From Peptococcaceae bacterium (GTDB taxonomy: Bacteria; Bacillota; Peptococcia; Peptococcales; Peptococcaceae): a stretch of DNA of 52,187 nucleotides. Each line of letters opens with the position of its first letter. Positions within the stretch are counted from its first letter, which is position 1. The notes beneath the pieces were generated by a model. That model saw only the letters and a list, made by a program, of their open reading frames with translations, did not search any database and was not told where the DNA came from. This document shows positions 14,267-51,747 of the stretch, in pieces. Where the stretch lies: NCBI GenBank assembly GCA_017399005.1, contig JAFQEO010000024.1, positions 1 through 52,187 on the forward strand, given 5' to 3'. The translations under genes and the position numbers were made by a program.

Positions 14267-15172
14267 ATGCATCTGGACCAACTTCTTCTGGTATTAGACC
14301 TGGCACAGACACACTCCTTTAATCAGACTGCGGAACGGCACTACACCACGCAGCAAAGTGTGTCTTACAGTATTAAACAGCTGGAGAAAGAACTGAATGT
14401 GAAAATCTTTAACCGCTCCAAAACCGGTGTGTCCTTTACAAAAGAAGGACAGTATGTGCTGGATTGTGCCCGGCAGATGCAGACTTCCTGGCAGGAACTT
14501 CTGCATAATCTCGGGCAGGAACCTGCATTGGAGGCCCCTCCGGAAAAACTGACACTATACACATCCTCTGTACTGATAAACGACAGTATGCCGACTATCA
14601 TTAAAACATTCAGTCAGGCATGTCCGGGAACCCGTCTGTTTATCAAAGAGGTATCCGATGAAACCATCATTTCCTCACTGCTGCACGGTCAGTGTGATAT
14701 TGCCATGTGGACGGTGAACCACGGCTATCTTGAAAAAAACGTATCACCCGATGTAGCCAACCGGCTTTCACTGAATGTCATGATGCAGGACAATTCCGTG
14801 GCAGTGATTTCACACACTTCGCCGCTGGCTAAAAAAGAGCTGCTTTCTATTGATGATGTGTCCGCTTCAACGAAAACCATTTACGGTGTAGCACCAATTG
14901 ACTATTTTGGCAAAGACGCTTCGTCTTATGTGCTGTACAATGATAACAATCTGGCCATTCATCAACAGCTGGCATCGGAAGACAACACCATCTGTTTTAC
15001 CTCCGAGATTATGTATCAGAAATTCTTCCCGAAAGAGCAGTTCACAGCACGTCCGTTTGAATATCCAACGCTGCCGTATTATCACATGCTGCTTCGCCGG
15101 AAAGATTCTCAGCATGCAGTTTATCAGCTTCTGGAACGTATTATCACGAAAGAACTGACAAAACGGACATAA
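14267..15172 (+). CDS. LysR-family transcriptional regulator
   Basis: The 301 residues have the LysR N-terminal winged helix-turn-helix: LVLDLAQTHSFNQTAERHYT, then the recognition segment with QSVSYSIKQLEKELN. A periplasmic-binding-protein-like effector domain follows from about residue 90. An AAGGAG ribosome binding site precedes the ATG. The gene stands alone on the plus strand between two minus-strand operons and ends at a two-way terminator. Its target and effector cannot be read from sequence. LysR proteins often act on a divergent neighbour, but here that is the rpmG operon, so a distant target is more likely. Confidence 0.88.
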   Translation: MHLDQLLLVLDLAQTHSFNQTAERHYTTQQSVSYSIKQLEKELNVKIFNRSKTGVSFTKEGQYVLDCARQMQTSWQELLHNLGQEPALEAPPEKLTLYTSSVLINDSMPTIIKTFSQACPGTRLFIKEVSDETIISSLLHGQCDIAMWTVNHGYLEKNVSPDVANRLSLNVMMQDNSVAVISHTSPLAKKELLSIDDVSASTKTIYGVAPIDYFGKDASSYVLYNDNNLAIHQQLASEDNTICFTSEIMYQKFFPKEQFTARPFEYPTLPYYHMLLRRKDSQHAVYQLLERIITKELTKRT

Positions 15173-15268: not shown

Positions 15269-16207
15269 TCATTCTGAAATAATATTCCAGCGGCGTCCCC
15301 AGTAGCGCAACCCTTCTGCGGCTGTCTCCTGTGATTCTATCTGTTCCATGCAGGTTGTCCACAGTTCCACCGGGATAGCACTCGGCAGACTCTGCAGCGT
15401 TATAATTCTGTCCAGATAGGTCTCGTCCATCAGTTCTTTCAAATCGGTTTCAAACTGTTTGCGCACCTTTGGCAGATCATTGCTTCGGTTATACCAGTAG
15501 GTTTTCTGATAAATCGGTGTGTGCAGCACACCTTCTTCATCCATTTCTTTTACTTTATTATACAGCGATTTCTCATTGGCATTACACATGAACGCATAGT
15601 TCCCTGTGGTTTTGCTCTGATACGCCACTCCATAAAAAGTTCTCTCAAAATTGTCATGCATCTGCATTTTCCGCATCATCTGTTTTTTTGTCAGCTTAAT
15701 CCATTTGCAGAGCTGCTTATAACGCCACTCCGGCAGATGTTTGGTTACATAGGCATAATCTACCGCACCGGCGAACAGATGCAGTTCCTCCTCGTCAAAA
15801 TAGCCGTCCAGTTCCTCCTGCCATTCCAAAAGCAGCGTTTCCGCCTGGTCATCGCCCGGGGCCTGCTGCAGTTGAAGCAATGCTGCAAAATATGCATCCG
15901 GGAACTGTTCCTTCAACTGTTTTGCCAGCTGCAATTTAAAATAAAGAAACAAATCTTCCTGTGTCTCCTCTTTTACAATGGCACGGGTCGTCCACTGCTG
16001 CATCGGCGTTAACGTGCAGCCTTCCAGCGCATGTTCCTCATAAGTTCTCTGTATCAGCAGTTCATCGTCACTCATACTGTACATGCGTTTTCCATTTTCC
16101 CGTTTCCAAGAATAGCCGTATACCGTGCAGTCCTGTTCAAAACAATTCATTTCAGCCAGTTTATTGACCATTTGCGCACTGCTGACATCGCGCAGTGATG
16201 TTGTCAT
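15269..16207 (-). CDS. Protein of unknown function, 312 residues
   Basis: I do not recognise the family. The protein is soluble-looking, without signal peptide or membrane helices. It is rich in Gln, Glu and Lys in the middle (long helical stretches such as LQLAKQLKEQFPDAYFAALL). Aromatic-rich segments (QKTYWYNRSND) lie toward the C-terminus. AGGAGG precedes the ATG at 16207. It is the last gene of a three-gene minus-strand unit after the ABC ATPase, 27 bases downstream, so it is probably co-expressed with it. Confidence 0.75.
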   Translation of the reverse strand: MTTSLRDVSSAQMVNKLAEMNCFEQDCTVYGYSWKRENGKRMYSMSDDELLIQRTYEEHALEGCTLTPMQQWTTRAIVKEETQEDLFLYFKLQLAKQLKEQFPDAYFAALLQLQQAPGDDQAETLLLEWQEELDGYFDEEELHLFAGAVDYAYVTKHLPEWRYKQLCKWIKLTKKQMMRKMQMHDNFERTFYGVAYQSKTTGNYAFMCNANEKSLYNKVKEMDEEGVLHTPIYQKTYWYNRSNDLPKVRKQFETDLKELMDETYLDRIITLQSLPSAIPVELWTTCMEQIESQETAAEGLRYWGRRWNIISE

Positions 16208-16234
16208 ACGATTTCCTCCTCCCCTGCCATCTCA

Positions 16235-17017
16235 TCAAAAGGATAAATGATAATAGCCATCCTTCATCCGGCTGATTTCCACCGGTTTCTGCAGAAAGCT
16301 GCTGATTACTTCTGAATTAATTACATCTTCAACCTTCCCGCTCTGGTAAATCTGGCCATTTCGCATCAGCATGCAGTTGTCAAACAAATCCGGCGAGATT
16401 TCCTCAAAGTGATGCGTTACATATAAAATGGTGTGCTGTCCTTCATCGGCAATTCCTTTTACAAAGCGCTTCATTTTATGTTTCATAACCACATCCAGCC
16501 CGGTCATTGGTTCATCTAACACCATAACTTCCGGTTGAGCCAGAAGCGCACGCAGAATCAGGATGTTCTGTCGTTCCCCTTTTGACAGCCAGCTGTAGGA
16601 TGCATCCAGACGATCCTGCAGACCAACACGCTCCAGAAGGCGTTTCAGTTTTCGCACATGGGAAGACGAAATACTGCCATCTTCCAGGCCCAGCGTGCCG
16701 CTCAAACCCGCCAGTGCCAGATCCATTACCGATTCATTCTGATAGATACGGTCAAAATAGGAGTTGCTGATGAAGCCCATTTTTTTGCGGATATCCAGAA
16801 TATTCTGCTCCCGGTAGTTCTCGCCGCGATAAAAAATATCGCCATGTGTGTAATCCTGATAACCGGAAAGCATACTCAGCAATGTTGTTTTGCCGCTGCC
16901 ATTCATGCCCAGAATAATCCAGCGGCTCTTTTCTTCAATTTCCCAGTTCACATTCTTTAATAAGAAGCGATTGCCCGACTGACAGCCTAGTCCTCTTGTT
17001 GTAATGATTGCACCCAT
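16235..17017 (-). CDS. ABC transporter-type ATP-binding protein
   Basis: The 260-residue nucleotide-binding domain has Walker A GMNGSGKTT (residues 37-45), ABC signature LSKGE (144-148), Walker B VMVLDEP (164-170) and the switch His in VTHH. All catalytic residues are present, so it should be active. No permease or binding-protein gene is adjacent. The start overlaps the upstream gene by 31 bases, and its GGAGG site lies inside that gene, suggesting translational coupling. The overall look resembles molybdate-type or YlmA-like orphan ATPases. The substrate, if any, is unknown. Confidence 0.85.
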   Translation of the reverse strand: MGAIITTRGLGCQSGNRFLLKNVNWEIEEKSRWIILGMNGSGKTTLLSMLSGYQDYTHGDIFYRGENYREQNILDIRKKMGFISNSYFDRIYQNESVMDLALAGLSGTLGLEDGSISSSHVRKLKRLLERVGLQDRLDASYSWLSKGERQNILILRALLAQPEVMVLDEPMTGLDVVMKHKMKRFVKGIADEGQHTILYVTHHFEEISPDLFDNCMLMRNGQIYQSGKVEDVINSEVISSFLQKPVEISRMKDGYYHLSF

Positions 17018-17448
17018 TGGTCCGCCTCCTCCAGCAGCTGTTCCAGACGGTCATCCTCGATGGTGGTACACTGCTCCATCGCGTATTCGTTCATATGTAC
17101 CGGAACCGTCAGCCCTGTCTCATTGGTGAGCCCCAGATAACGCAGCTGCCAGCTTGTAATGTTACACACTTTTGCCACATTCATCTGCAGACGCTGTTCG
17201 TTGTCTTCCATATCTGGAAAGTGGTTAAACTGTGTCGCTTCTACAAAGGCTTTTGCACTGGCATAGGCCTCTTTCTCCACACCATATTCGATTTTCTGAC
17301 ACTGGTCACAATATAATTCAATACGCGCCATCGCCTGAGTATGAAACACAATCTGCCGCACATGCAGTTCACTTCCGCAATAACGGCAGCAGCAGTATTT
17401 TGCACGCTGTTTCAGGCGGTCAACACGCAGTGATTTTTCTTTTGCCAC
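16987..17448 (-). CDS. Putative zinc-ribbon protein of unknown function
   Basis: The 153-residue protein has a Cys-rich N-terminal region: KYCCCRYCGSEL, followed by CDQC about 25 residues later, which looks like a zinc ribbon. The remainder is acidic and has no membrane segment. I do not recognise the family. It heads the unit with the ABC ATPase and the 312-residue protein and overlaps the ATPase start by 31 bases. AAAGGAG precedes the ATG. Confidence 0.75.
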   Translation of the reverse strand: MAKEKSLRVDRLKQRAKYCCCRYCGSELHVRQIVFHTQAMARIELYCDQCQKIEYGVEKEAYASAKAFVEATQFNHFPDMEDNEQRLQMNVAKVCNITSWQLRYLGLTNETGLTVPVHMNEYAMEQCTTIEDDRLEQLLEEADQWVQSLQQED

Positions 17449-17675: not shown

Positions 17676-19091
17676 TTAGTTGAAAATGAAGTTAGCGATA
17701 GGCCAACCGATAATCAGGAATACAACGAACAGGATTGCTACCATCAGAATACCGTATTTGGACATCTGACCGGAGGATACCCAGTTGGTGTAGGAGAATG
17801 CTACCCCTGTTACTGGAGAAGCCGCTGGTGTTGCCAGAGCAAATTCGGTGATGATGAACATTAAGCATACCATACCGATAGGGTTCATACCCAGCATGGA
17901 ACCGAAGTTTACCAGGAACGGCATGCACAGGATAGCTGCCAGCATGTTGTTTGCCACGTTGGTCAGTAACAGACAGAACAGCATTACGAACACGATGAAT
18001 ACCATTGGAGGCAGTTTCATGAACGGCATAATCAGAACGGACATAAAGGTTGTGATACCGGTAGCAGGGTTCATCATCTGAGTGGATACTACCATAATGT
18101 AACCTACCATCATAATCTGACCCCAGTTTACCAGATGCAGCAGTTCTTCCAGGTTGCCCAGAGGTTTGCCGTTTTCATCTTTCAGCAGAGGTACAACAGC
18201 ACCCATCAGCATAGCGATACCAACGATACCGAACTGTTCCAGGAAGTGTTTGATTGCGCCAGGTGCAAAAATCATAACAACGTTCGCCAGCATAAATACT
18301 ACGAACAGGATCAGAGCTGTTTTCTGACCTTTTGTAGCAGCTGGAACGCCGCCTTCAGGGCTATAGTTGGACAGTGGAGAAACGTCTACACGGAATACAA
18401 ATTTCATCAGAGCCAGCAGTACAACCAGCATAATCAGACCCATAGATACCATCATGGTCAGGTACTGATCCATTGGGATTGGCAGATCTGGGAACATGTT
18501 GTTGTAAGCCATCAGATAGGTTAAACCGGTACCCATGAATGGGAACAGAATCTGACCACGCATTAACTGATAGGATACAGCCAGGAACATGATAACAACC
18601 AGTTTGTCGTCTTTTTTAACGCCAACCTGTTCAAACATGGAAATCATGAAGGATGCGAAAATCATCATCATGATGATTGGGTTGAAGGAACCAACAGCCC
18701 AAGCCAGCAGCAGAATAACAGCCAGAATCAGCCAGCCTTTACCTGCCATTGCTTTGTTGGTTAACAGTTTCATAGCCAGCCATGTAAACGCACCGTTTTT
18801 CATAGCTACACCGATTGCCATCATACATACGATCATAGCAACGATTGTTAAGCTACCAAAGCTTGCTGTCATCATGTTGGTCATACCGATACTTAAACCG
18901 ATACCAACCAGAGCCAGGATAGATGGCCACAGCATATCAATTAAAATCCAGCCGTATACAGCGCCGATAAAGGTACCCATGATACCCATACCTACTTCAG
19001 TCAGGCCTAACACTGGTGGCACAAAACGGAAACATAAGCAGAATAATGCTACTACTAAATAGTGAATAATATTAACTTTTTTCTGTTCCAT
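17676..19091 (-). CDS. SLC13/ion-transporter superfamily permease
   Basis: This is a polytopic inner-membrane protein of 471 residues with about 11-12 hydrophobic helices. Two loop-like segments characteristic of the superfamily appear: LTNVANNMLAAI and FALATPAASPVTGVAFSYTN. Family members carry out sodium- or proton-coupled uptake of dicarboxylates, sulfate or other anions. The ATG at 19091 was chosen because GGGGGAAA lies 6 bases upstream. The frame is open for 56 more codons. It is read in the same direction as the two phosphodiesterase-like genes and shares their ribosomal-like codon use (CGT, GGT, AAC), suggesting high expression. The substrate is unknown. Confidence 0.82.
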   Translation of the reverse strand: MEQKKVNIIHYLVVALFCLCFRFVPPVLGLTEVGMGIMGTFIGAVYGWILIDMLWPSILALVGIGLSIGMTNMMTASFGSLTIVAMIVCMMAIGVAMKNGAFTWLAMKLLTNKAMAGKGWLILAVILLLAWAVGSFNPIIMMMIFASFMISMFEQVGVKKDDKLVVIMFLAVSYQLMRGQILFPFMGTGLTYLMAYNNMFPDLPIPMDQYLTMMVSMGLIMLVVLLALMKFVFRVDVSPLSNYSPEGGVPAATKGQKTALILFVVFMLANVVMIFAPGAIKHFLEQFGIVGIAMLMGAVVPLLKDENGKPLGNLEELLHLVNWGQIMMVGYIMVVSTQMMNPATGITTFMSVLIMPFMKLPPMVFIVFVMLFCLLLTNVANNMLAAILCMPFLVNFGSMLGMNPIGMVCLMFIITEFALATPAASPVTGVAFSYTNWVSSGQMSKYGILMVAILFVVFLIIGWPIANFIFN

Positions 19092-19413
19092 AGTAATTTC
19101 CCCCATTTCATTATTAAATGTAAACAGAAAGTTGTGTTTGTGTGCAGCTTCTGTCTCATCATCGCTTTCAACATCTGCCACGGTCTGAACCGGAGCGTCA
19201 ATCATAAATGTTATAAGTTCCAGGAACTCCGGACAGGCTGTAACATATCCGTTAAGCAATTTCAGAAACAGATGCCGTACTTATTTTTGAAACCTTTTCT
19301 TTTTTTCGTATTTTCTCGTACGCATTGAATGAAAATGATCTGCAATAATAAAGATTCTACCCGGCCGGCCGAAACCGGCCGGACAGAATGATTACCCGTA
19401 ATGAAACTGTCTA
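19092..19413. other. Transporter leader region with an open in-frame extension
   Basis: No separate gene is called here. On the minus strand the permease frame remains open for 56 codons upstream of the chosen ATG and reads like real coding sequence (for example IDAPVQTVADVESDDETEAA). It could be a genuine N-terminal extension or a remnant. No convincing promoter was seen. The left part of the next transcript's terminator lies at 19361-19382. Confidence 0.5.
19361..19382 (-). terminator. Terminator-like all-G:C hairpin after the second phosphodiesterase-like gene
   Basis: CCGGCCGG pairs with CCGGCCGG across a 6-base loop, a stem made only of G:C pairs in a moderate-G+C genome. The T tract that follows on the minus strand is weak (ATCTTTATT), so termination may be partial. 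Confidence 0.5.
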
Positions 19414-21537
19414 TTACAGTTCTTCTGTTAAGATGCTGTAAACAGGAGCACCTTCACACTGTGCAGGCATTCTTACGCCTAACAGAGCAGCTGCAGTAGG
19501 AGCTACGTCAACTTCGCGTGGGAACTGGCTCATTTCGAAGCCTTCTTTAATACCAGCACCAGCTGCTACGAAGATTGGCCCTACGGAAGTATCTGCGTAA
19601 CCTTCAGCGGTGGATAAGGATTCACCGTGGTCACGAACGAAGTCTTCGTGAACGAAGAAGATGATATCAGCAGATGTGTGTTCGCCGCCTAAGCCCAGCA
19701 GATTTGCATCTTTTCTGTGCAGAGCCAGAGCGATTACACGACGGCCTGTTTTTGGATCTCTTACGCCGTACAGGTCGGTGATGATTTTTTCTTCCAGTTC
19801 ATATTTTTCAGCCGGGTCAACGATACCGAAACGGTCGCGGCCTTTCAGGTTGATATAGATAGAGTTGGAACGCTGCTGAATAGCACGTGTTTTATCCCAG
19901 TCGATTGCTGCGATTTCGTTGCCGTTTTCATCTTTCTGCAGAACGGTGTAGCCCAGATCTCTCATTAAACCGATGTTGATACCGTAGTTGTCACCGATTT
20001 CAGGCATATAGTCTTCTTTTGGAGAAATCAGAGAGTGGTCAGAGAATACCAGAATGGTCCAGCCTTTGTCTAACAGATGCATGAATTCGCCGATGTATTC
20101 GTCAGCCATTTCATGAGTACCGATTGCATAGTTGTAATAGGTTTCTTCGCCTTTTCTGGATTCGCCTTCACGTTCTTTCAGTGTACGCATGTAGGTGTGA
20201 CCAGCCATGTCAGGACCATGGAAGTGGGAGAAGATTACTTCTACGCCTTCTTCTTCGATCATGTAGTTCAGGGAATCAGCCTGCCATTTTGCAGCCTGTC
20301 TCCACTGTTCCAGGTTGCAGTCCATAACGATAGCGTCGTCGCCATCGCCTAACTGGCCTGTTGCACATGGAGGACCGAATTTTGCTTTGATTTTGTCAAA
20401 GATCCATGTTGGGTACCAAACGCTGTTGTCGTCAGCAGAGAAACCGTTGGAGTACCACATACGCAGGAAGGAACCGTCTTCAGCCAGATCCAGAATGCGT
20501 ACGTTACGTACAATGTTTTCCATGCCGCCTGTACGACGGTTTGGCATAAAGTCAGGCACATTTTTGGTGTAAACATTTTTTTCAATGATTGCAACAGGCT
20601 GTGGCTGATCTTTTTTCAGATATACAGCGATTCTGTCGTATACACCCTGTTCATTTTTCAGGATTAAGCAAGGGTGTGGGAATCTGCCGTATACCAGCAT
20701 CCATGTGAATTCTTTTGCGCCTTCTGGGATTTCAACTTCCCAGCCGGTTGGTTCGGTGATTGGGCTCAGTGCCAGGTTGCCAGGGAAGTGATGCAGGTTG
20801 TACATCTGCTGGTCGCCAGGCATTAAGATGTTTGTACGGATATCCATCATTTTCAGTGGGTGGAAACCGTTGAAACCATCGATACCTTCTTTGAATTCGT
20901 TATATAAGTCGTCTACATAAGACAGGTCGTTTTCGCATTTTGTGTAGCTGTTGTGTTTTGGAGCCAGGCCCAGCAGTTCAGCAGGGTCACCGGAGAAACC
21001 TTCAGTGTGGCAGAATGCGTTGCCTTTAAATTCTGGTGCTTCGATTTTTTCGCTTGCTACTGCGATACCTTCCCAGTCACGCATTGCGTATGTGAAGCCC
21101 AGAGCACCTGGAGAAGTACCATCTACTACGTACAGGTTTTCGCTGTCGGAGGATGGTGGCCAGGAACCGCCCGGCCAGTGCCATACTAATGTTTTTTTGC
21201 CGGCTTCTGCGGTTACATTCCATAACTGTTCTGCTTTGCAGTATTTGGAGTAGATACCGGAGAAGTTAACAGCCAGATCACCTTCCAGGTTGATATTGAA
21301 GTCTTCAATACCGTGAGTCATTGGGTATGCACCGGTAGCCAGTGTTGCCCATGTTGGAGGTGTAATAGTAGGTACAGCACCTAACAGACGCAGGTCGTGA
21401 CGAGCAGAACCGCGTTCGATTAATTTTTTCAGGTTTGGCATATGCCCTTCATCAACCATTTTACGGGAGAATTTTGGGTCTAAGCCGTCTAAGCCTAACA
21501 GAATTACTTTTTCAGATAAACCTTTGTTTCTTAACAT
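19414..21537 (-). CDS. Alkaline-phosphatase-superfamily phosphodiesterase-like protein (paralogue 2)
   Basis: The 707-residue protein has the metal and nucleophile set of type I phosphodiesterases/nucleotide pyrophosphatases. D17 lies in LLGLDGLD and the probable nucleophile T59 in TPPTWATLATG, followed by YPMTHGI. D443 and H447 (FHGPDMAGH), D500 and H501 (FSDH) and H637 (RDHGES) complete two zinc sites. There is no signal peptide, so it acts in the cytoplasm. The large insert between residues 80 and 430 is unusual. A Thr nucleophile argues against a formylglycine sulfatase. The ATG at 21537 was chosen because AAGGGG precedes it. It has its own promoter at 21596-21624. It is a close paralogue of the next gene upstream. 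Confidence 0.82.
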   Translation of the reverse strand: MLRNKGLSEKVILLGLDGLDPKFSRKMVDEGHMPNLKKLIERGSARHDLRLLGAVPTITPPTWATLATGAYPMTHGIEDFNINLEGDLAVNFSGIYSKYCKAEQLWNVTAEAGKKTLVWHWPGGSWPPSSDSENLYVVDGTSPGALGFTYAMRDWEGIAVASEKIEAPEFKGNAFCHTEGFSGDPAELLGLAPKHNSYTKCENDLSYVDDLYNEFKEGIDGFNGFHPLKMMDIRTNILMPGDQQMYNLHHFPGNLALSPITEPTGWEVEIPEGAKEFTWMLVYGRFPHPCLILKNEQGVYDRIAVYLKKDQPQPVAIIEKNVYTKNVPDFMPNRRTGGMENIVRNVRILDLAEDGSFLRMWYSNGFSADDNSVWYPTWIFDKIKAKFGPPCATGQLGDGDDAIVMDCNLEQWRQAAKWQADSLNYMIEEEGVEVIFSHFHGPDMAGHTYMRTLKEREGESRKGEETYYNYAIGTHEMADEYIGEFMHLLDKGWTILVFSDHSLISPKEDYMPEIGDNYGINIGLMRDLGYTVLQKDENGNEIAAIDWDKTRAIQQRSNSIYINLKGRDRFGIVDPAEKYELEEKIITDLYGVRDPKTGRRVIALALHRKDANLLGLGGEHTSADIIFFVHEDFVRDHGESLSTAEGYADTSVGPIFVAAGAGIKEGFEMSQFPREVDVAPTAAALLGVRMPAQCEGAPVYSILTEEL

Positions 21538-21595
21538 AGATACATTTACCCCTTTCAGTTCGTTATGCAGCAATACGAATATGTATTACCGTTCT

Positions 21596-21624
21596 ATTAT
21601 ATTCCCCATTTCTAAAATTCACAA
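21596..21624 (-). promoter_or_regulatory. Promoter of phosphodiesterase-like paralogue 2
   Basis: TTGTGA, 17-bp spacer, TATAAT on the minus strand, about 60 bases upstream of the ATG. Confidence 0.7.
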
Positions 21625-21689
21625 TACTTTTACAAAAAAATCTTTTCTAAAAAATTAATTTATGTGTAATTGTGAAAAAATACAGGCTT

Positions 21690-21719
21690 CTGTACAGCCC
21701 CGGAATCGGAGCTGTACAG
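21690..21719 (-). terminator. Terminator-like hairpin after phosphodiesterase-like paralogue 1
   Basis: CTGTACAGC pairs with GCTGTACAG, with further pairing inside. The T run on the minus strand starts about 10 bases after the stem, so it may work only partly. Confidence 0.55.
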
Positions 21720-21767
21720 AGCCGGTAATATTCAAATCAGAATCGGTTCAGGGTTCTCCTGCCAGAA

Positions 21768-23825
21768 TTAGTCTTCGATAATCTGGTAGATTGGAGCGCC
21801 TTCACACTGTGCAGGCATTCTCAGACCCATAATAGAAGCGATTGTTGGAGCAACGTCAACCTGGCGAATCATACGGTCAGTGTAAATACCTTTTTTGATA
21901 CCAGGGCCTGCAGCCATGAAGATTGGACCAGCGGAGGTATCGCATTCACCCAGAGCGGTAGCCATGCTGTCATCGTGGTCATGTTCATAACCTTCTGCCA
22001 TGCAGTAGATGATGTCACCACTGTCAGGGCCGCCTAAACCTAAAGCGATAGCGTCTCTGTTACGCAGTGCCCATGCAATGATACGTTTGCCGGTTTCTTT
22101 ATCTTTAATGTTGTACAGGTCAGTAATGATTTTTTCTTCCCATTCATACTGATCAGCTGGATCAATCAGACCATCGATAACTACATCGTTACCTTCAGCA
22201 TCTTTTACAACGTGCTGGTTTCTGCCTTTGATGTTCAGGTAGATGTGCATTTCACGGTTCGCAACAGCTGTTGTTTTGGTCCAGTCCATACGACGTTTTT
22301 TCTTACCGGTTTCAGGGTTTACTTCACGAACGGTGTAGCCCAGTTCTTCCATAATCTGAATGTTGCAGCCGGTATCGCCTAAGCCGCGCAGACCATATTT
22401 AGGGCAAACCTGTGCGTGGTCGGATACTACCATCAGTGTCCAGCCTTTATCCAGGAAGTGCATAAATTTACCCAGGTAACGGTCAGTCTGTCTGTAGATT
22501 TCCTGCATGATGAATTCATACTGTTCAGCAGTTGTGTTTTCGGTACCTTTTGCCAGGTCACGGATAAACATATGTTTCTGTAAGTCTGGTGCATGGAAGT
22601 GGGAGAATACTACTTCGTAGTCGTTGTTTTCCATCAGGTAGTTCAGAGAATCTGCCTGGAAGTCAGCAACGTGTTCCCAGCACTGATGCATGCAGTCGTA
22701 AATCAGTTCGAAGTCACCGAAGCCCAGAGTGGAGCATGGGGATGGATAACCAACGTTGTCTACGATTTCTTTGTACAGAGCTCTTGGATGCCACATCATG
22801 TCTGCTTCGATGTTCATGGAAGCGGATACCCACATTTTAACTTTGGAACCGTCTTCAGCGATTTCCAGTACACGCATGTCGCGGGTAGCTTTGATCATGT
22901 CATCGCCTTTCATGCAATCGTCAACGATGTCACGAACATATTCACGGTTTTTAATGGTAACCATTGGTTCCAGCTGTTTTTTGTTTTTGTAGATAGCGAT
23001 GTGGTCGTATTTACCGTCTTCGCCTTTCAGAACCAGAGCTGGACGACGAATCAGACCGCCGGATAACAGAACTACGAATTCTTTTGCATCTGCAGGAATT
23101 TCAGCAGCCCATTTTTCAGCTGGTTTAATGGAAGAGAATGCGATGTCGGCTGGAATAGCGTTGGAACCACCCTGACCATCTTTGTTAGGGTTTACAATGT
23201 ACAGACGGAAACCGTCTTCCATTTTACGCTGCATTAAGCTAGCCATACCGCCGGATTTCTGTTTTGGTTTGTCATCGCCTAAACCGGTAACTACGCAAGG
23301 AACTTTTGCGTCTGTCATAGCGCCGGAGCGATATTCGATAGTGTCGTTTTTGTCACTTGCCATAACGATGAATTCACCGTCTACCTGAGCGGAACTCATG
23401 TTAACGCCACCTGGGGAGGTACCGTCTACTACATGCAGGTTTTCGCTGTCAGAGGATGGTGGCCATGCGGAACCTGGCCAGTGCCATACTAATGTTTTTT
23501 TGCCAGCTTCAGCTGTTACATTCCACATCTGTTCTGCATGACATTTTGTGGAGTCGAAGTTCAGGTTTACCATATCCAGGTCGCCGCCCTGTCTGTAGAA
23601 AGCGGTGATACCGTGTGTGGATGGGTAAGCACCTGTTGCCAGTGTAGTCCACTGTGGTGGAGTTACAGTTGGCAGAGCGCCTAATAATACTAAGTCTTCT
23701 CTGGCAGCGCCAGCTTCCAGAAGTTTTTTGGTGTTTGGCATGATGCCCATGTCAATGTATTTTCTTGTCAGACGTGGGTCCATTGCGTCAACACCCAGCA
23801 CAGCTACTTTACTTGCTTTTGCCAT
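21768..23825 (-). CDS. Alkaline-phosphatase-superfamily phosphodiesterase-like protein (paralogue 1)
   Basis: The 685-residue protein is cytoplasmic by absence of a signal peptide. The superfamily ligands are all present: D13, the probable nucleophile T55 in TVTPPQWTTLATG, D414 and H418 (HAPDLQKH), D469 and H470 (VSDH) and H617 (EHDHDDS). It shares with paralogue 2 a distinctive block (WNVTAEAGKKTLVWHWPG, then WPPSSDSENL and VVDGTSPG) not typical of generic family members. AGGAGG precedes the ATG. The substrate cannot be read from sequence. Phosphodiesters and phosphonates are both chemically plausible. The codon use suggests strong expression. Confidence 0.82.
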   Translation of the reverse strand: MAKASKVAVLGVDAMDPRLTRKYIDMGIMPNTKKLLEAGAAREDLVLLGALPTVTPPQWTTLATGAYPSTHGITAFYRQGGDLDMVNLNFDSTKCHAEQMWNVTAEAGKKTLVWHWPGSAWPPSSDSENLHVVDGTSPGGVNMSSAQVDGEFIVMASDKNDTIEYRSGAMTDAKVPCVVTGLGDDKPKQKSGGMASLMQRKMEDGFRLYIVNPNKDGQGGSNAIPADIAFSSIKPAEKWAAEIPADAKEFVVLLSGGLIRRPALVLKGEDGKYDHIAIYKNKKQLEPMVTIKNREYVRDIVDDCMKGDDMIKATRDMRVLEIAEDGSKVKMWVSASMNIEADMMWHPRALYKEIVDNVGYPSPCSTLGFGDFELIYDCMHQCWEHVADFQADSLNYLMENNDYEVVFSHFHAPDLQKHMFIRDLAKGTENTTAEQYEFIMQEIYRQTDRYLGKFMHFLDKGWTLMVVSDHAQVCPKYGLRGLGDTGCNIQIMEELGYTVREVNPETGKKKRRMDWTKTTAVANREMHIYLNIKGRNQHVVKDAEGNDVVIDGLIDPADQYEWEEKIITDLYNIKDKETGKRIIAWALRNRDAIALGLGGPDSGDIIYCMAEGYEHDHDDSMATALGECDTSAGPIFMAAGPGIKKGIYTDRMIRQVDVAPTIASIMGLRMPAQCEGAPIYQIIED

Positions 23826-35829: not shown

Positions 35830-37098
35830 TTAGATAATCAGCGCCGGGAAGAACAGCGGCAGATAAACAATCAGTATGAATACAAACAGTAAGCCAAGCA
35901 GATATGGAATTACCGCTTTTGCAATTAATTCAATCGGTTTCCCGGTAATACCAGATGCCACAAACAGGTTAATCGCTACCGGCGGTGTAATCATCCCGAT
36001 AGCAATCCCCACCACAAACATAATCCCGAAATGCACCAGATTTACGCCAAGGCCAGTTACCAGCGGTAAAAATACCGGTGTCAGAATAATAATCGCAGAC
36101 GAGGTTTCCATAAATACACCGGCAATAATAATTACCAGAGCAATCAGGAACATCAGAATATATTTATTGGTAGATACACCTAAAATCGCGCTGGCAATCG
36201 CATCCGGAATACCGTAGCTTGCCAGTACCCAGCCAAACGGACCGCTGCAGGCAATAATAATCATAATAACAGCAGAAGTTTTCGCACTGCCTTTCATAAT
36301 TTCAAACAGTTTTGCCGGTGTCATATCACGATATACAAAGAACGAAACCAGCATTGCATAGACTACTGCAACCGCAGCCGCTTCCGATGCTGTGAAAATC
36401 CCGGAGAAGATACCGCCTAAAATAATGGCCGGCATAATCAGACCTGGCACCGCTTTTAAAAATGTCTTCAGTACACGCATCAGTACAATGCGGTCGCCTT
36501 TTGGATAATTGCGTTTATATGCCTGCACCAGCGCAATGGCAATCAGGATTGCACCCATCAGCATACCAGGTCCAAACCCGTTAGTAAACAGTGCATTAAT
36601 GGTTACACCACGACCAGCCGCAACCGCATACAGAACCATTGGAACCGACGGCGGAATAACAACACCGATAGTCCCTGCCGCTGCAATTAATGCGGCCGAC
36701 TGATCTTCATCATAGCCGCGCGCTTTTAACTGTGGAATCAATGTAGAACCCACTGCAGCTGTGGTAGCCGCACCGGAGCCGGAAATTGCTGCAAAGAACA
36801 TCCCTACTACTACGGATACGATAGACAAGCCGCCTTTGATAACGCCTAAAAAGGATTCGGCAAATTCCACCAGATATCTGGAAATCGCACCGTGCGCCAG
36901 CAAATCACCGGCGAGAATAAAAAACGGTACTGCAATTAATGGAAAAGAGTTGGTGCTGGCAAACATACGCTGTGCCATCATACCCAGCCCTACATCACCG
37001 GCCAGCATAACCGACATGGCAGAAAGCATAATCGAAAAGGCAACCGGAACGCCAAGTAACAGCGCGATAATAAATACTGCAAACAGTAAGACTGTCAT
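35830..37098 (-). CDS. dctM: TRAP transporter large membrane subunit (DctM type)
   Basis: This 12-helix ion-coupled permease belongs to a tripartite ATP-independent periplasmic-type transporter. Its 422 residues include the family motifs AAISGSGAATTAAVGSTLIP, GTIGVVIPPSVPMVLYA and GMITPPVAINLFVASG. The ATG shares one base with the dctQ stop (TAATG), and GGAGG lies within dctQ. It is the last gene of dctPQM. The symbol is used in the generic sense and does not imply a C4-dicarboxylate substrate. Confidence 0.93.
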   Translation of the reverse strand: MTVLLFAVFIIALLLGVPVAFSIMLSAMSVMLAGDVGLGMMAQRMFASTNSFPLIAVPFFILAGDLLAHGAISRYLVEFAESFLGVIKGGLSIVSVVVGMFFAAISGSGAATTAAVGSTLIPQLKARGYDEDQSAALIAAAGTIGVVIPPSVPMVLYAVAAGRGVTINALFTNGFGPGMLMGAILIAIALVQAYKRNYPKGDRIVLMRVLKTFLKAVPGLIMPAIILGGIFSGIFTASEAAAVAVVYAMLVSFFVYRDMTPAKLFEIMKGSAKTSAVIMIIIACSGPFGWVLASYGIPDAIASAILGVSTNKYILMFLIALVIIIAGVFMETSSAIIILTPVFLPLVTGLGVNLVHFGIMFVVGIAIGMITPPVAINLFVASGITGKPIELIAKAVIPYLLGLLFVFILIVYLPLFFPALII

Positions 37099-37607
37099 TA
37101 TGCGTTTCCTCCTTTCGATTTAAACAATTCCTCAAAAACGGCATTCACCGCATGAATCAGCATTAAGCCAAAGCCAATCGGCACCGACATATACATATAT
37201 TTCATTGGAATACGAAGCGAAGGTGCCAGCTGCATCTGTTTCATTGCAAAATTAAAACCAAAATAAACAACCGCACAAAACGCTACGATACAGAGAACAT
37301 GAACCAGGATACGAATATAACGCTGTACTTTTGGAGGGAAGAACCCCTGTAAAAAGGTTATCGTAATATGTGACCCTTCTTTATAAGCACTGCTGGCACC
37401 CAGAAACGTTGCCCATACCAGCAGATACCGGCAGACTTCCTCGCTCCACTGCAGTGGCTTTACCCCATCCAGCATTGTGGATAATTCTCGGCAAACAATC
37501 TGGGCAATAGTAACACATACCATAGCTGCAATCATGGCAACCACAATTGCGATACACACCTTATCGATGCCGTCACTGAATTTTTTGAATCCTTTTGCGA
37601 AATTCAT
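37098..37607 (-). CDS. dctQ: TRAP transporter small membrane subunit (DctQ type)
   Basis: The 169 residues carry four transmembrane helices. The family motif appears as LQWSEEVCRYLLVWATFLGA followed by KEGSHI. It bridges the binding protein and DctM. GGGAGTTG precedes the ATG. It is separated from dctP by about 100 bases containing a stem-loop. Confidence 0.92.
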   Translation of the reverse strand: MNFAKGFKKFSDGIDKVCIAIVVAMIAAMVCVTIAQIVCRELSTMLDGVKPLQWSEEVCRYLLVWATFLGASSAYKEGSHITITFLQGFFPPKVQRYIRILVHVLCIVAFCAVVYFGFNFAMKQMQLAPSLRIPMKYMYMSVPIGFGLMLIHAVNAVFEELFKSKGGNA

Positions 37608-37642
37608 TTTCTCAACTCCCTATATAAATCTGATTATGTAAG

Positions 37643-37681
37643 AGAAAAGGCAAGGCCGACAGAATCTGCCCGCCTCGCCTT
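37643..37681 (-). terminator. Intra-operon stem-loop between dctP and dctQ
   Basis: AAGGCGAGGC pairs with GCCTTGCCTT (one mismatch). The stem is followed on the minus strand by TTTCTCTTA. It is likely a partial terminator or 3'-end stabiliser that leaves dctP mRNA in excess. Confidence 0.55.
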
Positions 37682-37713
37682 ATTATGTTTCAAATATGAA
37701 CTGCACCTGCAAA

Positions 37714-38736
37714 TTACATTGCGTCGGTTACAGCCTGGATTTTTGCCAGAGTGTCAGCATACTGAGGATATGCATCATATACTGGCTGTACAGCTGCTTT
37801 GAAGCTGTCTAAATCTGGATTTTCCACAACCTGCATACCGTTATCTTTCATAGCCTGCAGCTGTTCTGCTTCGTTATCTGCACACCATGCACGTTCAAAT
37901 TCAGCTGCTTCCTGAGCTGCATCTTTGAAGATTACCTGTACATCTTCAGGCAGAGCATTGAAATCTTCCAGGCTCATAGTAATGATAGCAGTTGCATAGG
38001 AGTGACGAGTCAGAGTTGCATGACTCTGGTTGGATTCCCACAGAGAGTAGGAGTAAATTACATTGATTGGGTTTTCCTGACCTTCAATGGTACCGTTCTG
38101 CAGAGCAGTCAGAGTTTCCTGCCATGCCATTGGTGTTGCGTTGGTGCCCAGCGCATCAAATGTTTTTGCATATACTTCGTTTTCCATTACACGCAGTTTT
38201 AAATCTGCCATGTCAGCTGCGGTTGTTACAGGACGAACACTGTTGGTTACATTACGGAAACCGCGTTCTGCGTAAGCCAGACCTTTCAGGTTTGCTGCTT
38301 CCAGAGAGCCCAGCAGTTCCTGACCAACTTCACCGTCTAATACAGCATATGCTTCTTCACTGCTGCCAAACAGGAATGGCAAGTCCAGAACACCCATGTC
38401 TGGTGCGTAGTTTACAAATGGACCACTTGTTACGATACCCATTTCCAGTTCACCTGCTGCCATAGAGGACAGTAAGTCACTTTCATCACCCAGCTCACCG
38501 TTTGGATGAATTTCGATGGTGTAAGCACCTTCTGTTTTTTCTTCAACGATTTCTTTAAATTTTTCTGCAGCAACCTGGAAGCTGTCCTGTTCGTTTACTG
38601 TGGTAGCCAGTTTGATTACAACTGGTTCATCCCCTGCAGCATTCTGCCCTTCATCAGAGCCGCCGCCACACGCTGTCATTGTAAATGCCATAGCACACAT
38701 GGTTAATGCAGCAACTAATTTACGTGCTTTTTTCAT
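37714..38736 (-). CDS. dctP: TRAP transporter solute-binding lipoprotein (DctP type)
   Basis: The 340-residue binding protein has a lipobox (signal MKKARKLVAALTMCAMAFTM, Cys at 23), so it is anchored on the cell surface. The fold markers are GELEMGIVTSGPF, GFRNVTNSVRPV and R182 in LKLRVMENEVY. That Arg normally clamps the substrate's carboxylate or other acid group. The ATG at 38736 follows GGGGGAG. The substrate is an organic acid of unknown identity. Isethionate is one possibility, because some isethionate-lyase bacteria import it by TRAP systems. Confidence 0.92.
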   Translation of the reverse strand: MKKARKLVAALTMCAMAFTMTACGGGSDEGQNAAGDEPVVIKLATTVNEQDSFQVAAEKFKEIVEEKTEGAYTIEIHPNGELGDESDLLSSMAAGELEMGIVTSGPFVNYAPDMGVLDLPFLFGSSEEAYAVLDGEVGQELLGSLEAANLKGLAYAERGFRNVTNSVRPVTTAADMADLKLRVMENEVYAKTFDALGTNATPMAWQETLTALQNGTIEGQENPINVIYSYSLWESNQSHATLTRHSYATAIITMSLEDFNALPEDVQVIFKDAAQEAAEFERAWCADNEAEQLQAMKDNGMQVVENPDLDSFKAAVQPVYDAYPQYADTLAKIQAVTDAM

Positions 38737-38792
38737 TGGTAATCTCCCCCATAATACATTTTTGGGACCGTTCATTTTTTGTCCTTGCACAG

Positions 38793-38821
38793 AGTATAGC
38801 ACCACAAAATGCGAAAGTCAA
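38793..38821 (-). promoter_or_regulatory. dctPQM promoter
   Basis: TTGACT, 17-bp spacer, TATACT on the minus strand, about 55 bases before dctP. Confidence 0.75.
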
Positions 38822-48124: not shown

Positions 48125-48203
48125 TAAAACAGGTAAAGGTTGGGGCAAAACGCCTCAATAGAAAATAAACTATTTTTAATTAGAAGAAAGGATGATTACC
48201 ACC

Positions 48204-50708
48204 ATGACACAGCCAATTCAATGCTGCTACTCTCCACACGAAGAGCACATCATGCGTGCTAACGAAGGGAGTAACGACTACAAAAAAGGCAGAGAAAGAA
48301 TCTACAAAATCTTAGACCGTAACCAGAACCTGAAACCAGTGATTGATGCTGAACGTGCTAAATACTTCACAGAATCCATGGCTCAGACCGAAGGTGAACA
48401 CCTGACACTGAGATGGGCAAAAGCTCTGATGCACATCGCTAAAAACATCACTGTATATGTTGAAGAAGACAGCTTACTGGCTGGTCGTATCGGTTGCCAG
48501 GGTCGCTATGGTATCCTGTACCCTGAACTGGACGGCGATATCTTCGAAGAAGCTATCAAATTACTGCCAACACGTGTAACTTCTCCATTCAACATGACAC
48601 AGGAAACCGTTGATACCATCCTGAACGACATCGCTCCATACTGGGATGTTAACACAGGTAGAGGTAAAACATTCTTCAACGACCTGTACGATGCACTGCC
48701 AGCTGATACATTAGCTGTAACATACGAACCAGAATTCAAATCTACTTCCAGATTTATCGTAAACGAAACAGCTTCCTTCCGCTCCTCCAACCAGTGGGTT
48801 CCAGACTTTGAAAAAGTTCTGAAACGCGGTTTCAAAGGTCTGAAAGAAGAAGCTCTGGAAAAATTAGCTGCTCTGGATAACTACGATCCACTGGACAACG
48901 TAAACAAAAAACCATTCTACGAAGCAATCGTAATCGTTTGCGACGCTATCGTTCTGTGGGCTAACCGTTACGCTGACCTGTACGAAGTAGAAGCAGAAAA
49001 AGAAACCGATCCAGTTCGCAAACAGGAAATGGTTGACATCGCTGCTCGTTGCCGTTGGGTACCAGAAAACCCAGCTCGTGACTTCCGTGAAGCTATCCAG
49101 TCTCAGTGGTTCACCCAGATGTTCTCCCGTCTGGAACAGAAAACCGGTACAATCGTATCCAACGGTCGTATGGACCAGTACCTGTACCCATACTACAAAG
49201 CTGATAAAGAAGCTGGTAAACTGACAGACGAACAGGCTATGGAACTGCTGGAATGCATGTGGGTTGGTATGGCTCAGTTCATCGACCTGTACATGTCCGT
49301 AACTGGTGGTGCGTTCAACGAAGGTTACGCTCACTGGGAAGCTGTTACAATCGGTGGCCAGACACCAGATGGTCAGGATGCTACTAACGAACTGACCTAC
49401 CTGTTCCTGAAATCCAAACAGGAATTCCCTCTGCACTACCCAGACTTAGCAGCTCGTGTACATGCTCGTTCTCCACAGCGTTACATCGAAGAATGTGCTA
49501 AAACAATTAAAGAAGGTTCCGGTTTCCCTAAACTGTTAAACGACGAAGAAATCGTTCTGCAGTTAGTTTCCAACGGCGCTAAAATCCATGAAGCATTTGA
49601 CTATGCTGTATCCGGTTGTGCTGAAGCGAGAATGCCTAACCGTGACACCTTTACTTCCGGTGGTGTATACATCAACTTTGCATCCGCAATCGAAATGATG
49701 ATGTACAACGGTCGTACATTCAAAACTGGCGATGAATTACTGGGTATCGAAACAGGCGATGTTGAAACATTCGAAACTTGGGATGATGTATGGAATGCAT
49801 ACGTAATCCAGGCTAAAAACCTGTTAAGACACGCTTTCATCCAGCAGAAAAACATCAACAGACTGCGTGAAAAACACTTCGCTGCTCCAATGCTGTCCGC
49901 TATGCATGACCTGTGCATGGAAAACGCATTAGACCTGCACACTGAATTCATCCCAGGTGGCGTTGATATCGGTTACTTCGAATCCATGGGCTTCGGTACC
50001 GTAGTTGACTCCCTGGCTGCTATCAAAAAATTAGTATTTGATGAAAAAGTAACTACTCTGGTAGAAATCAGAGAAGCTATGAAAGCTAACTTCGAAGGTT
50101 ACGAAGTATTAAAACAGCGTTTACTGAACGCTCCAAAATACGGTAACAACGATCCATACGCTGACGAAATCGGTAAAGCTTGCGACTTAGTATGCTCCGA
50201 ATTCACAGACAAATACTCCAAATCTCTGGGTATTGAATACTGCCTGCGTTATGTACCATTTACATCTCACGTACCATTCGGTAAAGTTGTAGGTGCTACA
50301 CCTAACGGTCGTGTTGCTTACTTCCCACTGTCTGACGGTTCCTCCGCTTCCCATGGTTGCGATACCAACGGTCCAACAGCAGTTATGTTAAGTAACTACT
50401 TCACCAAAAACCCAGGCTTCCATGACAGAGCAGCTCGTCTGCTGAACATCAAATTCGACCCAAGTACTGTTGCTGGCGAAGACGGTACCAAAAAACTGGC
50501 TTCCTTCATCAGAACATGGTGCGACCTGAAACTGTGGCATGTACAGTTCAACGTAATCAACAAAGAAACTCTGATCGCTGCGAAAGAAAATCCAGATCGT
50601 TACAGAGGCTTAATCGTTCGTATCGCTGGTTACTCCGCATACTTCTGCGACCTGTCCCCAGCTCTGCAGGACGACCTGATTGCTCGTACACAGCAGACAA
50701 CAATCTAA
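48204..50708 (+). CDS. islA: Glycyl radical enzyme, isethionate sulfite-lyase
   Basis: This enzyme is predicted to cleave the C-S bond of isethionate to acetaldehyde and sulfite by glycyl-radical chemistry in the cytoplasm under anoxia. The 834 residues have a PFL-like barrel and a C-terminal Gly-radical domain ([10 protein letters not shown]809). The thiyl Cys and base are C472 and E474 in [11 protein letters not shown]193, Q197, W378, R682 and F686 fall where Bilophila IslA has, as I recall, R189, Q193, W374, R678 and F682. All of these, and C468/E470/G805, are shifted by exactly +4. GCAE excludes choline lyase and glycerol/propanediol dehydratases (GCVEP). Dihydroxypropanesulfonate lyase (HpsG) is the main alternative. 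ATG 48204 was preferred because an ATG four codons upstream abuts the AAAGG site. Confidence 0.8.
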
Positions 50709-50740
50709 TTGCTGCATAAATAAAACTTTATAAGCAATCA

Positions 50741-50771
50741 AAAATGGGCGGGTTTTATACCCGCCCATTTT
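50741..50771 (+). terminator. Terminator between islA and islB
   Basis: AAAATGGGCGGG pairs perfectly with CCCGCCCATTTT, followed by TTTAAT on the plus strand. It ends islA transcripts and separates the enzyme from its activase. Confidence 0.85.
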
Positions 50772-50798
50772 AATAATATCGTTGTTGTAATATCAGTG

Positions 50799-50827
50799 TT
50801 GTATTTCGTCTGATTATTCGTTACAAT
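50799..50827 (+). promoter_or_regulatory. islB promoter
   Basis: TTGTAT, 17-bp spacer, TACAAT on the plus strand, about 33 bases before the islB ATG. Confidence 0.7.
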
Positions 50828-50859
50828 AGTTACATCAACAGTTCTAAGGAGGTGCAGCC

Positions 50860-51747
50860 ATGGAAGGTTGCGTATTTAACGTACAGAAATACTCTGTACA
50901 CGACGGCCCAGGGATTCGTACCATCGTCTTCTTAAAAGGCTGTCCATTGCACTGTAAATGGTGCTGTAACCCGGAATCTCAGCTGGTTCAGCCACAGATT
51001 GCATACAACCCTGAAAAATGTATTGGTACTGTATGTAAATTATGTGCAGAAGCTTGTCCGGAAAATATTATTACCATGTCTGAAGAGACTGGTAAAGCTG
51101 AAATCGATTTCAAAAAATGTATTCACTGTCTGGCATGTGCAAAAGCATGTCCTGCAAAATCCATCAGCTTATACGGTGAATATCAGAAACCGGAATATTT
51201 CATCAATAAAGTTGAAGAAGATGCTATCTTCTATTCCCGTTCTGAAGGCGGTTTAACTTTGAGTGGCGGCGAACCTACCATGCAGACCGAATTCGCAGTC
51301 GAATTATTACGCGATGCGAAAAGCCGCGGCATTACCACTGCAATCGAAACATGCGGTGCTATTCCATGGGAACAGTGCCATGAAGTATACGATTACTTAG
51401 ATTATATCCACTTCGATATCAAACATCTGAACTCTGAAAAACACAAAGAATGGACTGGTCAGGGCAACGAAACCATTCTGGACACCTTCCGCAAAATGCG
51501 TGAAGCTCATCCAGATGTTCACTGCGTTGCAAGAACTCCAATCATTCCAGGGTTCAACGATACCGAAGAAGATATTATCGCAATTCGTGATTTCGTAAAA
51601 CAGTTCCCTAATACCGAATATGAAGTACTGAAATATCATCGTTACGGTACAACCAAATATGATTTCATCGGCCGCGAATATCCAATGGGTACCGAAGAGC
51701 TGGACGGCGAATGGTTTAAACACCTGAAAGAAATCAGCTTACAGTAG
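50860..51747 (+). CDS. islB: Glycyl radical enzyme activase (radical SAM)
   Basis: This activase installs the glycyl radical on the upstream lyase, using S-adenosylmethionine and an iron-sulfur cluster. The 295 residues have the radical-SAM triad C28, C32, C35 (GCPLHCKWC), two ferredoxin-type clusters (C54/59/62/66 and C87/90/93/97) and the SAM-binding LSGGEPTMQ. The N-terminus YSVHDGPGIRTIVFLKGC is typical of the family. AAGGAGG precedes the ATG. It has its own promoter and terminator, so it is probably made in smaller amounts than islA. Assignment to isethionate lyase rests on its partner. Confidence 0.9.
   Translation: MEGCVFNVQKYSVHDGPGIRTIVFLKGCPLHCKWCCNPESQLVQPQIAYNPEKCIGTVCKLCAEACPENIITMSEETGKAEIDFKKCIHCLACAKACPAKSISLYGEYQKPEYFINKVEEDAIFYSRSEGGLTLSGGEPTMQTEFAVELLRDAKSRGITTAIETCGAIPWEQCHEVYDYLDYIHFDIKHLNSEKHKEWTGQGNETILDTFRKMREAHPDVHCVARTPIIPGFNDTEEDIIAIRDFVKQFPNTEYEVLKYHRYGTTKYDFIGREYPMGTEELDGEWFKHLKEISLQ

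Follow-up and report, generated by a model that had tools for sequence, protein, structure and literature searches.

The window analysed here, the 52,187-nucleotide contig JAFQEO010000024.1 (assembly GCA_017399005.1) of a gut Peptococcaceae-type bacterium (the host), carries on its minus strand, at positions 17676-23825, genes for two enzymes of the alkaline phosphatase (AP) superfamily, here called AP1 and AP2, and for a permease. AP1 (21768-23825, minus strand) is a 685-residue enzyme with the nucleotide pyrophosphatase/phosphodiesterase (NPP) fold, a Thr at the nucleophile position (Thr55) and a Cys (Cys177) in a flexible loop; a strong ribosome-binding site accompanies the start of its open reading frame (ORF) at the 23825 end. 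AP2 (19414-21573, minus strand), 45% identical to AP1, occupies a 719-residue ORF, the more probable start of which is the ATG at 21537, and belongs to a clade that mostly lacks Cys177. The permease (17676-19259, minus strand; 527-residue ORF, more probably starting at the ATG at 19091) belongs to the ion-transporter superfamily and is DASS/CitMHS-like. Between AP2 and the permease lies a terminator-like hairpin (19354-19389, minus strand) with a 16-pair stem and a T-rich tail. An earlier reading of the sequence alone, the original prediction, had proposed this trio, and all three ORFs are indeed present; it did not extend to a downstream cassette (15269-17448, minus strand) and a LysR gene (14267-15172, plus strand), both of which recur with the family. 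The evidence below leaves the scales about level for the proposal that the AP enzymes act inside the cell on organosulfur compounds taken up from outside, which would probably be sulfate esters, and thereby feed sulfite to the sulfite reductase DsrAB.

AP1 and AP2 match the profile PF01663 at 81.5 and 96 bits, respectively, against a cut-off of 23, and neither matched any of the curated equivalog profiles at its cut-off. Membership of the phosphonoacetate hydrolase family PhnA (TIGR02335) was rejected at 27.8 and 28.2 bits against a cut-off of 407.55, and that of PafA (NF042991) at 27.4 and 30.6 bits against 650. The S1 formylglycine sulfatases were likewise rejected: there is no C/S-x-P-x-R motif, and the nucleophile region reads PTxTPPxW. 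None of the host copies could be placed in a known hydrolase family, an assignment that would have counted against the original prediction. AP1 and AP2 are an unnamed, NPP-fold branch of the AP superfamily.

Residue conservation was counted over 88 homologues, in AP1 numbering. The set of metal ligands and Thr nucleophile (D13, T55, D414, H418, D469, H470 and H617) is invariant in 88/88, in agreement with the earlier claim of a complete metal site and Thr nucleophile, and an extra His, His411, is equally invariant. The N-termini of AP1 and AP2 show no signal peptide, again as had been claimed. The AlphaFold2 model of AP1, based on the 88-sequence alignment, has a mean pLDDT of 92.9 with a sole disordered stretch at residues 173-201, and shows the NPP fold, with VIA Z scores of 30.9 to ENPP7, about 30 to Xac NPP and 29 to PafA. 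The block NVTAEAGKKTLVWHWPG, which the original prediction took to be lineage-specific, turns out to align with the ordinary NPP motif GxK...WPG (venom phosphodiesterase ...GLKAATYFWPGS) and is kept family-wide (K110 in 84/88, W116 in 86/88 and P117 in 87/88). Cys177, within the disordered loop, is present in 78/88, its absences being confined to members of a single gut clade, to which AP2 belongs, and Cys674 is present in 84/88.

The family thus shares with the NPP/ENPP enzymes of PF01663 the core fold (VIA Z 28-31), the Asp/His metal ligands, the Thr nucleophile and the GxK...WPG motif, but differs from them in its length of about 690 residues, a large conserved insertion, its apparently cytoplasmic location, its genomic context of LysR, thioredoxin (Trx) and DsrAB, and the lack of the oxyanion Asn at the same offset. 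At sequence level the position of that Asn, directly after HGIxD, holds F/Y in 88/88, a merely suggestive difference since an Asn occurs one residue later in AP2 and several others. The PafA/SPAP alkaline phosphatases and PhnA are further Thr-nucleophile relatives in the superfamily; PhnA operons, too, carry LysR and transporter genes, and the AP family has WPG in place of the K-x-K/R motif of PafA and PhnA. Formylglycine sulfatases, including the choline sulfatase BetC, are akin in superfamily and in acting on sulfate esters such as choline-O-sulfate, the kind of substrate proposed here, but are set apart by their C/S-x-P-x-R motif, where the AP family has a Thr nucleophile and Trx/Trx reductase (TrxR) neighbours.

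An intracellular phosphodiesterase, or a hydrolase of phosphonates or phosphate esters, would accord with the NPP fold (Z of about 30 to ENPP7 and Xac NPP), the full bimetal/Thr set and the NPP-type WPG motif. Glycerophosphocholine or phosphocholine could then be the substrate of the choline-linked clade described below, the CutC neighbours of which fit phosphocholine too. We nevertheless consider such an activity unlikely: F/Y stands at the offset of the NPP Asn in all 88 homologues, and this explanation does not account for the co-occurrence with dsrA in 17 of 17 genomes or for the alkyl sulfatase, SsuA-type, arylsulfotransferase and Trx/TrxR neighbours, to which we now turn.

Ten full-length AP copies, on six contigs, are present in the host, those compared being 42-84% identical. 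All genomes of the same bacterial family that were examined carry AP enzymes, one 3-Mb genome having at least 29 separate full-length places. Named owners comprise gut Peptococcaceae metagenome-assembled genomes (MAGs) from ruminants and mouse, termite Gracilibacteraceae (some of these MAGs being presumed, from their isolate names, to be of termite origin), Pelotomaculum propionicicum, Desulfosporosinus, Desulforamulus, Anaerospora and a Desulfobulbus MAG; a plasmid collection contained no full-length homologue. The host has dsrA (547.5 bits against a cut-off of 392.85) with dsrB adjacent. A survey of 398 genomes of the phylum found the AP family in 17 and dsrA over its cut-off in 55; all 17 owners possess dsrA, compared with 38 of the 381 genomes without the family. 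The family matches in this survey are all at or below 6e-113, with none between 6e-113 and 1e-40. The hypergeometric probability of the co-occurrence is 2e-16 by genomes, a value inflated by genome relatedness, and about 6e-6 by the six owner bacterial families. Sixteen owner genomes were also checked, a few being evidently the same genome twice: dsrA is over the cut-off in 14, including Anaerospora, P. propionicicum, the termite Gracilibacteraceae and Desulfobulbus, while the first of the two without it is an incomplete gut genome.

The sulfite sources recognised for gut producers of hydrogen sulfide belong to the sulfonates, for example taurine, isethionate and 2,3-dihydroxypropane-1-sulfonate (DHPS). 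Sulfate esters, namely sulfated phenols, steroids and bile acids as well as choline sulfate, are abundant in gut and soil and are thought to require hydrolysis to sulfate, then full sulfate reduction. Among the owners tested, aprA over its cut-off and sat (PF01747) were found only in the four true sulfate reducers, each of the two genes being absent from the host, its gut relatives, Pelotomaculum, Gracilibacteraceae and Anaerospora. Gut owners without aprA and sat therefore need ready-made sulfite, most simply from organic compounds. One source for the host is DHPS degradation, the window encoding an HpsG-type glycyl radical enzyme with its activase (48192-51747, plus strand); HpsG scores 1428.7 against a cut-off of 1000 (NF048011) and the activase 423.8 against 430 (NF048010). 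In organosulfonate respiration, as in Bilophila and Taurinivorans, IslA, HpsG or Xsc feed DsrAB (PMC10507020, PMC6386719). The scheme proposed here is alike in that imported organosulfur would yield sulfite for DsrAB, in a host that has HpsG and dsrAB without sat and aprA, and differs in that an AP-superfamily enzyme would replace the glycyl radical, thiamine pyrophosphate (TPP) or pyridoxal phosphate enzyme, with sulfate esters as proposed substrates. The window also contains genes for a DctPQM TRAP transporter (35830-38805, minus strand), a possible sulfonate importer for HpsG.

Neighbourhoods were counted for 64 AP copies flanked by 3 kb of sequence on each side. Within that distance a LysR gene is found in 47/64 and a recognised transporter in 41/64, although the enrichment of both is poorly quantified since the background control comprised only 14 genes; thioredoxin is found in 18/64 and a 153-residue protein in 12/64. 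The transporters are of ion-transporter, DASS, BCCT, MFS and ABC types. In free-living sulfate reducers the typical order is LysR, transporter (BCCT or MFS), AP, Trx, TrxR, Trx directly adjoining AP and being usually accompanied by TrxR. In gut lineages it is LysR, AP, permease, often followed by a cassette of the 153-residue protein, an ABC ATPase and a 312-residue protein. Glycine or betaine reductase as the reason for the Trx/TrxR pair was considered; no Grd genes were noticed among the neighbours, where no profile search for Grd was made.

Several operons hint at the substrates. An apparent operon (L086) in a Lachnospiraceae MAG combines a TauC-like permease, an SsuA-family binding protein (168.9 against a cut-off of 163.5) and an ABC ATPase with AP, Trx, TrxR and a small multidrug resistance (SMR) gene. 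Another (L093) contains AP, MFS, DctP, alkyl sulfatase, Trx and TrxR genes, the alkyl sulfatase (PF14863, 124.8 against 26) and the DctP protein being located between AP and the Trx-TrxR pair. One AP clade adjoins the choline trimethylamine (TMA)-lyase CutC, in host contig C3 and in L072, with CutC scores of 1669 and 1570 against an equivalog cut-off of 1050; in the former (L010, 12377-15869) CutC, its activase, a bacterial microcompartment protein and SMR genes are beside the AP copy. Elsewhere the same clade adjoins BCCT transporters, TMA methyltransferases and a choline-binding protein. That one compound should serve both CutC, with its choline, and DsrAB, with its sulfur, points to choline-O-sulfate. 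In four Desulfosporosinus loci (L077, L081, L088 and L090) the MttB frame is in two pieces, of about 327 and 144 residues, as would fit a pyrrolysine UAG codon.

Taken together, the SsuA/TauC-type, alkyl sulfatase, CutC-choline and arylsulfotransferase neighbours favour organic sulfate esters, sulfonates being possible. The context thus argues strongly for an organosulfur class of substrate, and with moderate force for a sulfate ester over a sulfonate. Enzymes that would instead cleave C-S bonds in sulfonates, taurine-like or otherwise, much as PhnA does C-P bonds, could explain the TauC/SsuA-type transporter of the L086 operon and the co-occurrence with dsrA and HpsG. They are, in our estimation, quite unlikely: the CutC neighbours suggest a choline product, which no sulfonate can yield, the PhnA model gives only 28 of the 408 bits, and the alignment shows WPG where PhnA has its lysine pair. 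As regards the original prediction, its frame of an anionic ester imported intact and cleaved within the cell is backed by the transporters beside many copies, while its choice of a phosphodiester or phosphonate is probably the wrong class, since in the phylum survey the genomes with the family all fall within the larger group that has dsrA, and the neighbours are of organosulfur type.

For cleavage of organosulfur compounds we envisage the following course. The neighbouring permease would bring in an organosulfur compound, anionic or zwitterionic and most likely a sulfate ester, and the bimetal/Thr centre would attack the sulfuryl group of this compound inside the cell, freeing the alcohol. 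More speculatively, thioredoxin would then supply the electrons for setting the sulfuryl group free as sulfite, possibly by way of Cys177 in the mobile loop, in a step likened to that of the APS/PAPS (adenylyl sulfate and its 3'-phospho form) reductases, which pass through S-sulfocysteine. The sulfite would pass to DsrAB, which could hold its concentration very low, as the rough thermodynamic estimate given below would demand. LysR regulators would turn the units on substrate by substrate, and expansion of the family would mirror many different R groups. The AP2 clade may act together with AP1-type enzymes, on other substrates or purely hydrolytically; this clade mostly lacks Cys177 and also, as regards the host's other copies, an adjacent permease. 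The likeness to the APS/PAPS reductase CysH is in proposed action only, namely that a sulfuryl donor gives up sulfite in a Trx-dependent manner through a mobile Cys: CysH has an unrelated fold and an activated nucleotide substrate, and the AP family is no member of it.

Sulfite rather than sulfate is suggested as the product by the Trx/TrxR genes beside AP and by the absence of sat and apr from most owners. In its full form, this would make the enzymes 'organosulfate reductases' of the AP superfamily, splitting sulfate esters, transferring the sulfuryl group to thioredoxin and letting it out as sulfite without activation by ATP, which we put forward tentatively and regard as the less probable outcome. 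Plain hydrolytic sulfatases would produce sulfate and an alcohol, the latter serving as nutrient, with the sulfite for DsrAB coming from elsewhere. Such enzymes would be found in the same organosulfur and dsrA context, HpsG in the window can provide the sulfite, and the sulfate could be of use to the four owners that reduce sulfate. For most owners, which lack sat and aprA, the sulfate would however be waste, the adjoining Trx/TrxR pair would be left without a role, and the formylglycine motif is absent; we think this alternative rather unlikely.

Release of sulfite from organosulfur compounds by the AP family must be weighed against a number of contrary points. Everything beyond fold and residues comes from genomic context, and the co-occurrence with dsrA could arise from shared ecology. 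The second owner without dsrA, the Lachnospiraceae MAG of L086, which is outside the phylum sample, has only AsrC-like sulfite reductases, below the cut-off. The absence of sat was judged with PF01747, a profile blind to ATP sulfurylase of the CysDN type. Known AP-superfamily sulfatases use formylglycine, the motif for which the AP family lacks. By rough estimate, the reduction of an ordinary sulfate ester to sulfite by Trx is endergonic under standard conditions, so that sulfite would have to be kept very low. Cys177 is missing from AP2 and from most other members of its clade, and most gut AP copies have no adjoining Trx/TrxR pair. The pairing with a transporter seen by the original prediction holds for only part of the host set: six of the ten copies have no adjacent permease, although a LysR gene is near all host loci. 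Finally, the permease family also adjoins genes unrelated to sulfur.

The AP family, with up to at least 29 paralogues per genome and confined in this survey to sulfite respirers, adds a new branch to a known superfamily, with a proposed role that was not expected, and the analysis suggests that organosulfur cleavage could be a so far overlooked source of gut hydrogen sulfide. If so, sulfate conjugates would be linked to TMA formation through CutC, and genes whose only label at present is membership of the AP superfamily would acquire a function. As organosulfate reductases, the enzymes would let gut bacteria lacking sat and apr make hydrogen sulfide from sulfated metabolites of host, plant or microbial origin. 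In the open-access literature nothing was found on this family or on sulfite respiration fed by organosulfates, and a review of dsrAB diversity mentions neither sulfatases nor thioredoxin.

Downstream of the permease, the 153-residue protein (16987-17448, minus strand) has two Cys-pair motifs, is zinc-ribbon-like and matched no Pfam family. Its gene, which recurs downstream of gut AP genes, overlaps that of a stand-alone, ModF-like ABC ATPase (16235-17017, minus strand; 93.3 bits to PF00005 and 120 bits, below cut-off, to PRK10938). The 312-residue protein (15269-16207, minus strand) has two halves alike in secondary structure; its AlphaFold2 model (pLDDT 87.7) gave nothing above Z 5.5 in a fold search of the PDB. 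The 153- and 312-residue proteins each have 21 members in the set of AP-gene neighbourhoods, and the cassette recurs in gut lineages and Gracilibacteraceae, its ATPase being without a membrane partner. The LysR-type regulator (PF00126 and PF03466 matches) is convergent with the cassette. The strong hairpin separates AP2 from the permease, so that a single transcript spanning all six genes is unlikely. The separate promoters once attributed to the two enzymes found no backing, since the 24 promoter-like sites are no excess over the 20.2 ± 4.3 of shuffled sequences.

The permease itself matched no Pfam or NCBIfam model. Its description as SLC13/IT-type gains support only through paralogues, which match CitMHS (49.9 against 31.9) and Na_sulph_symp, with the DASS model below cut-off. 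Seven places in the host, that in the window included, have a member of this permease family. In host contig C9 (L107, 8098-14001) a paralogue is followed by three arylsulfotransferase ORFs (PF05935, up to 334 bits), between which a LysR gene lies on the opposite strand. Paralogues in L105, L106 and L108 (host contigs C34, C35 and C3) pair with flavoprotein reductase, amidohydrolase or TPP-enzyme genes and, with LysR genes nearby, form part of a broader set of organic-anion units in the host genome.

The high codon bias noted by the original prediction is real: when 112 sampled host ORFs are ordered by effective codon number, AP1 comes 4th, AP2 5th and the permease 7th. HpsG, DsrA and DsrB are 1st, 2nd and 3rd and EF-G is 6th, and in this company the AP genes resemble those of core energy metabolism.

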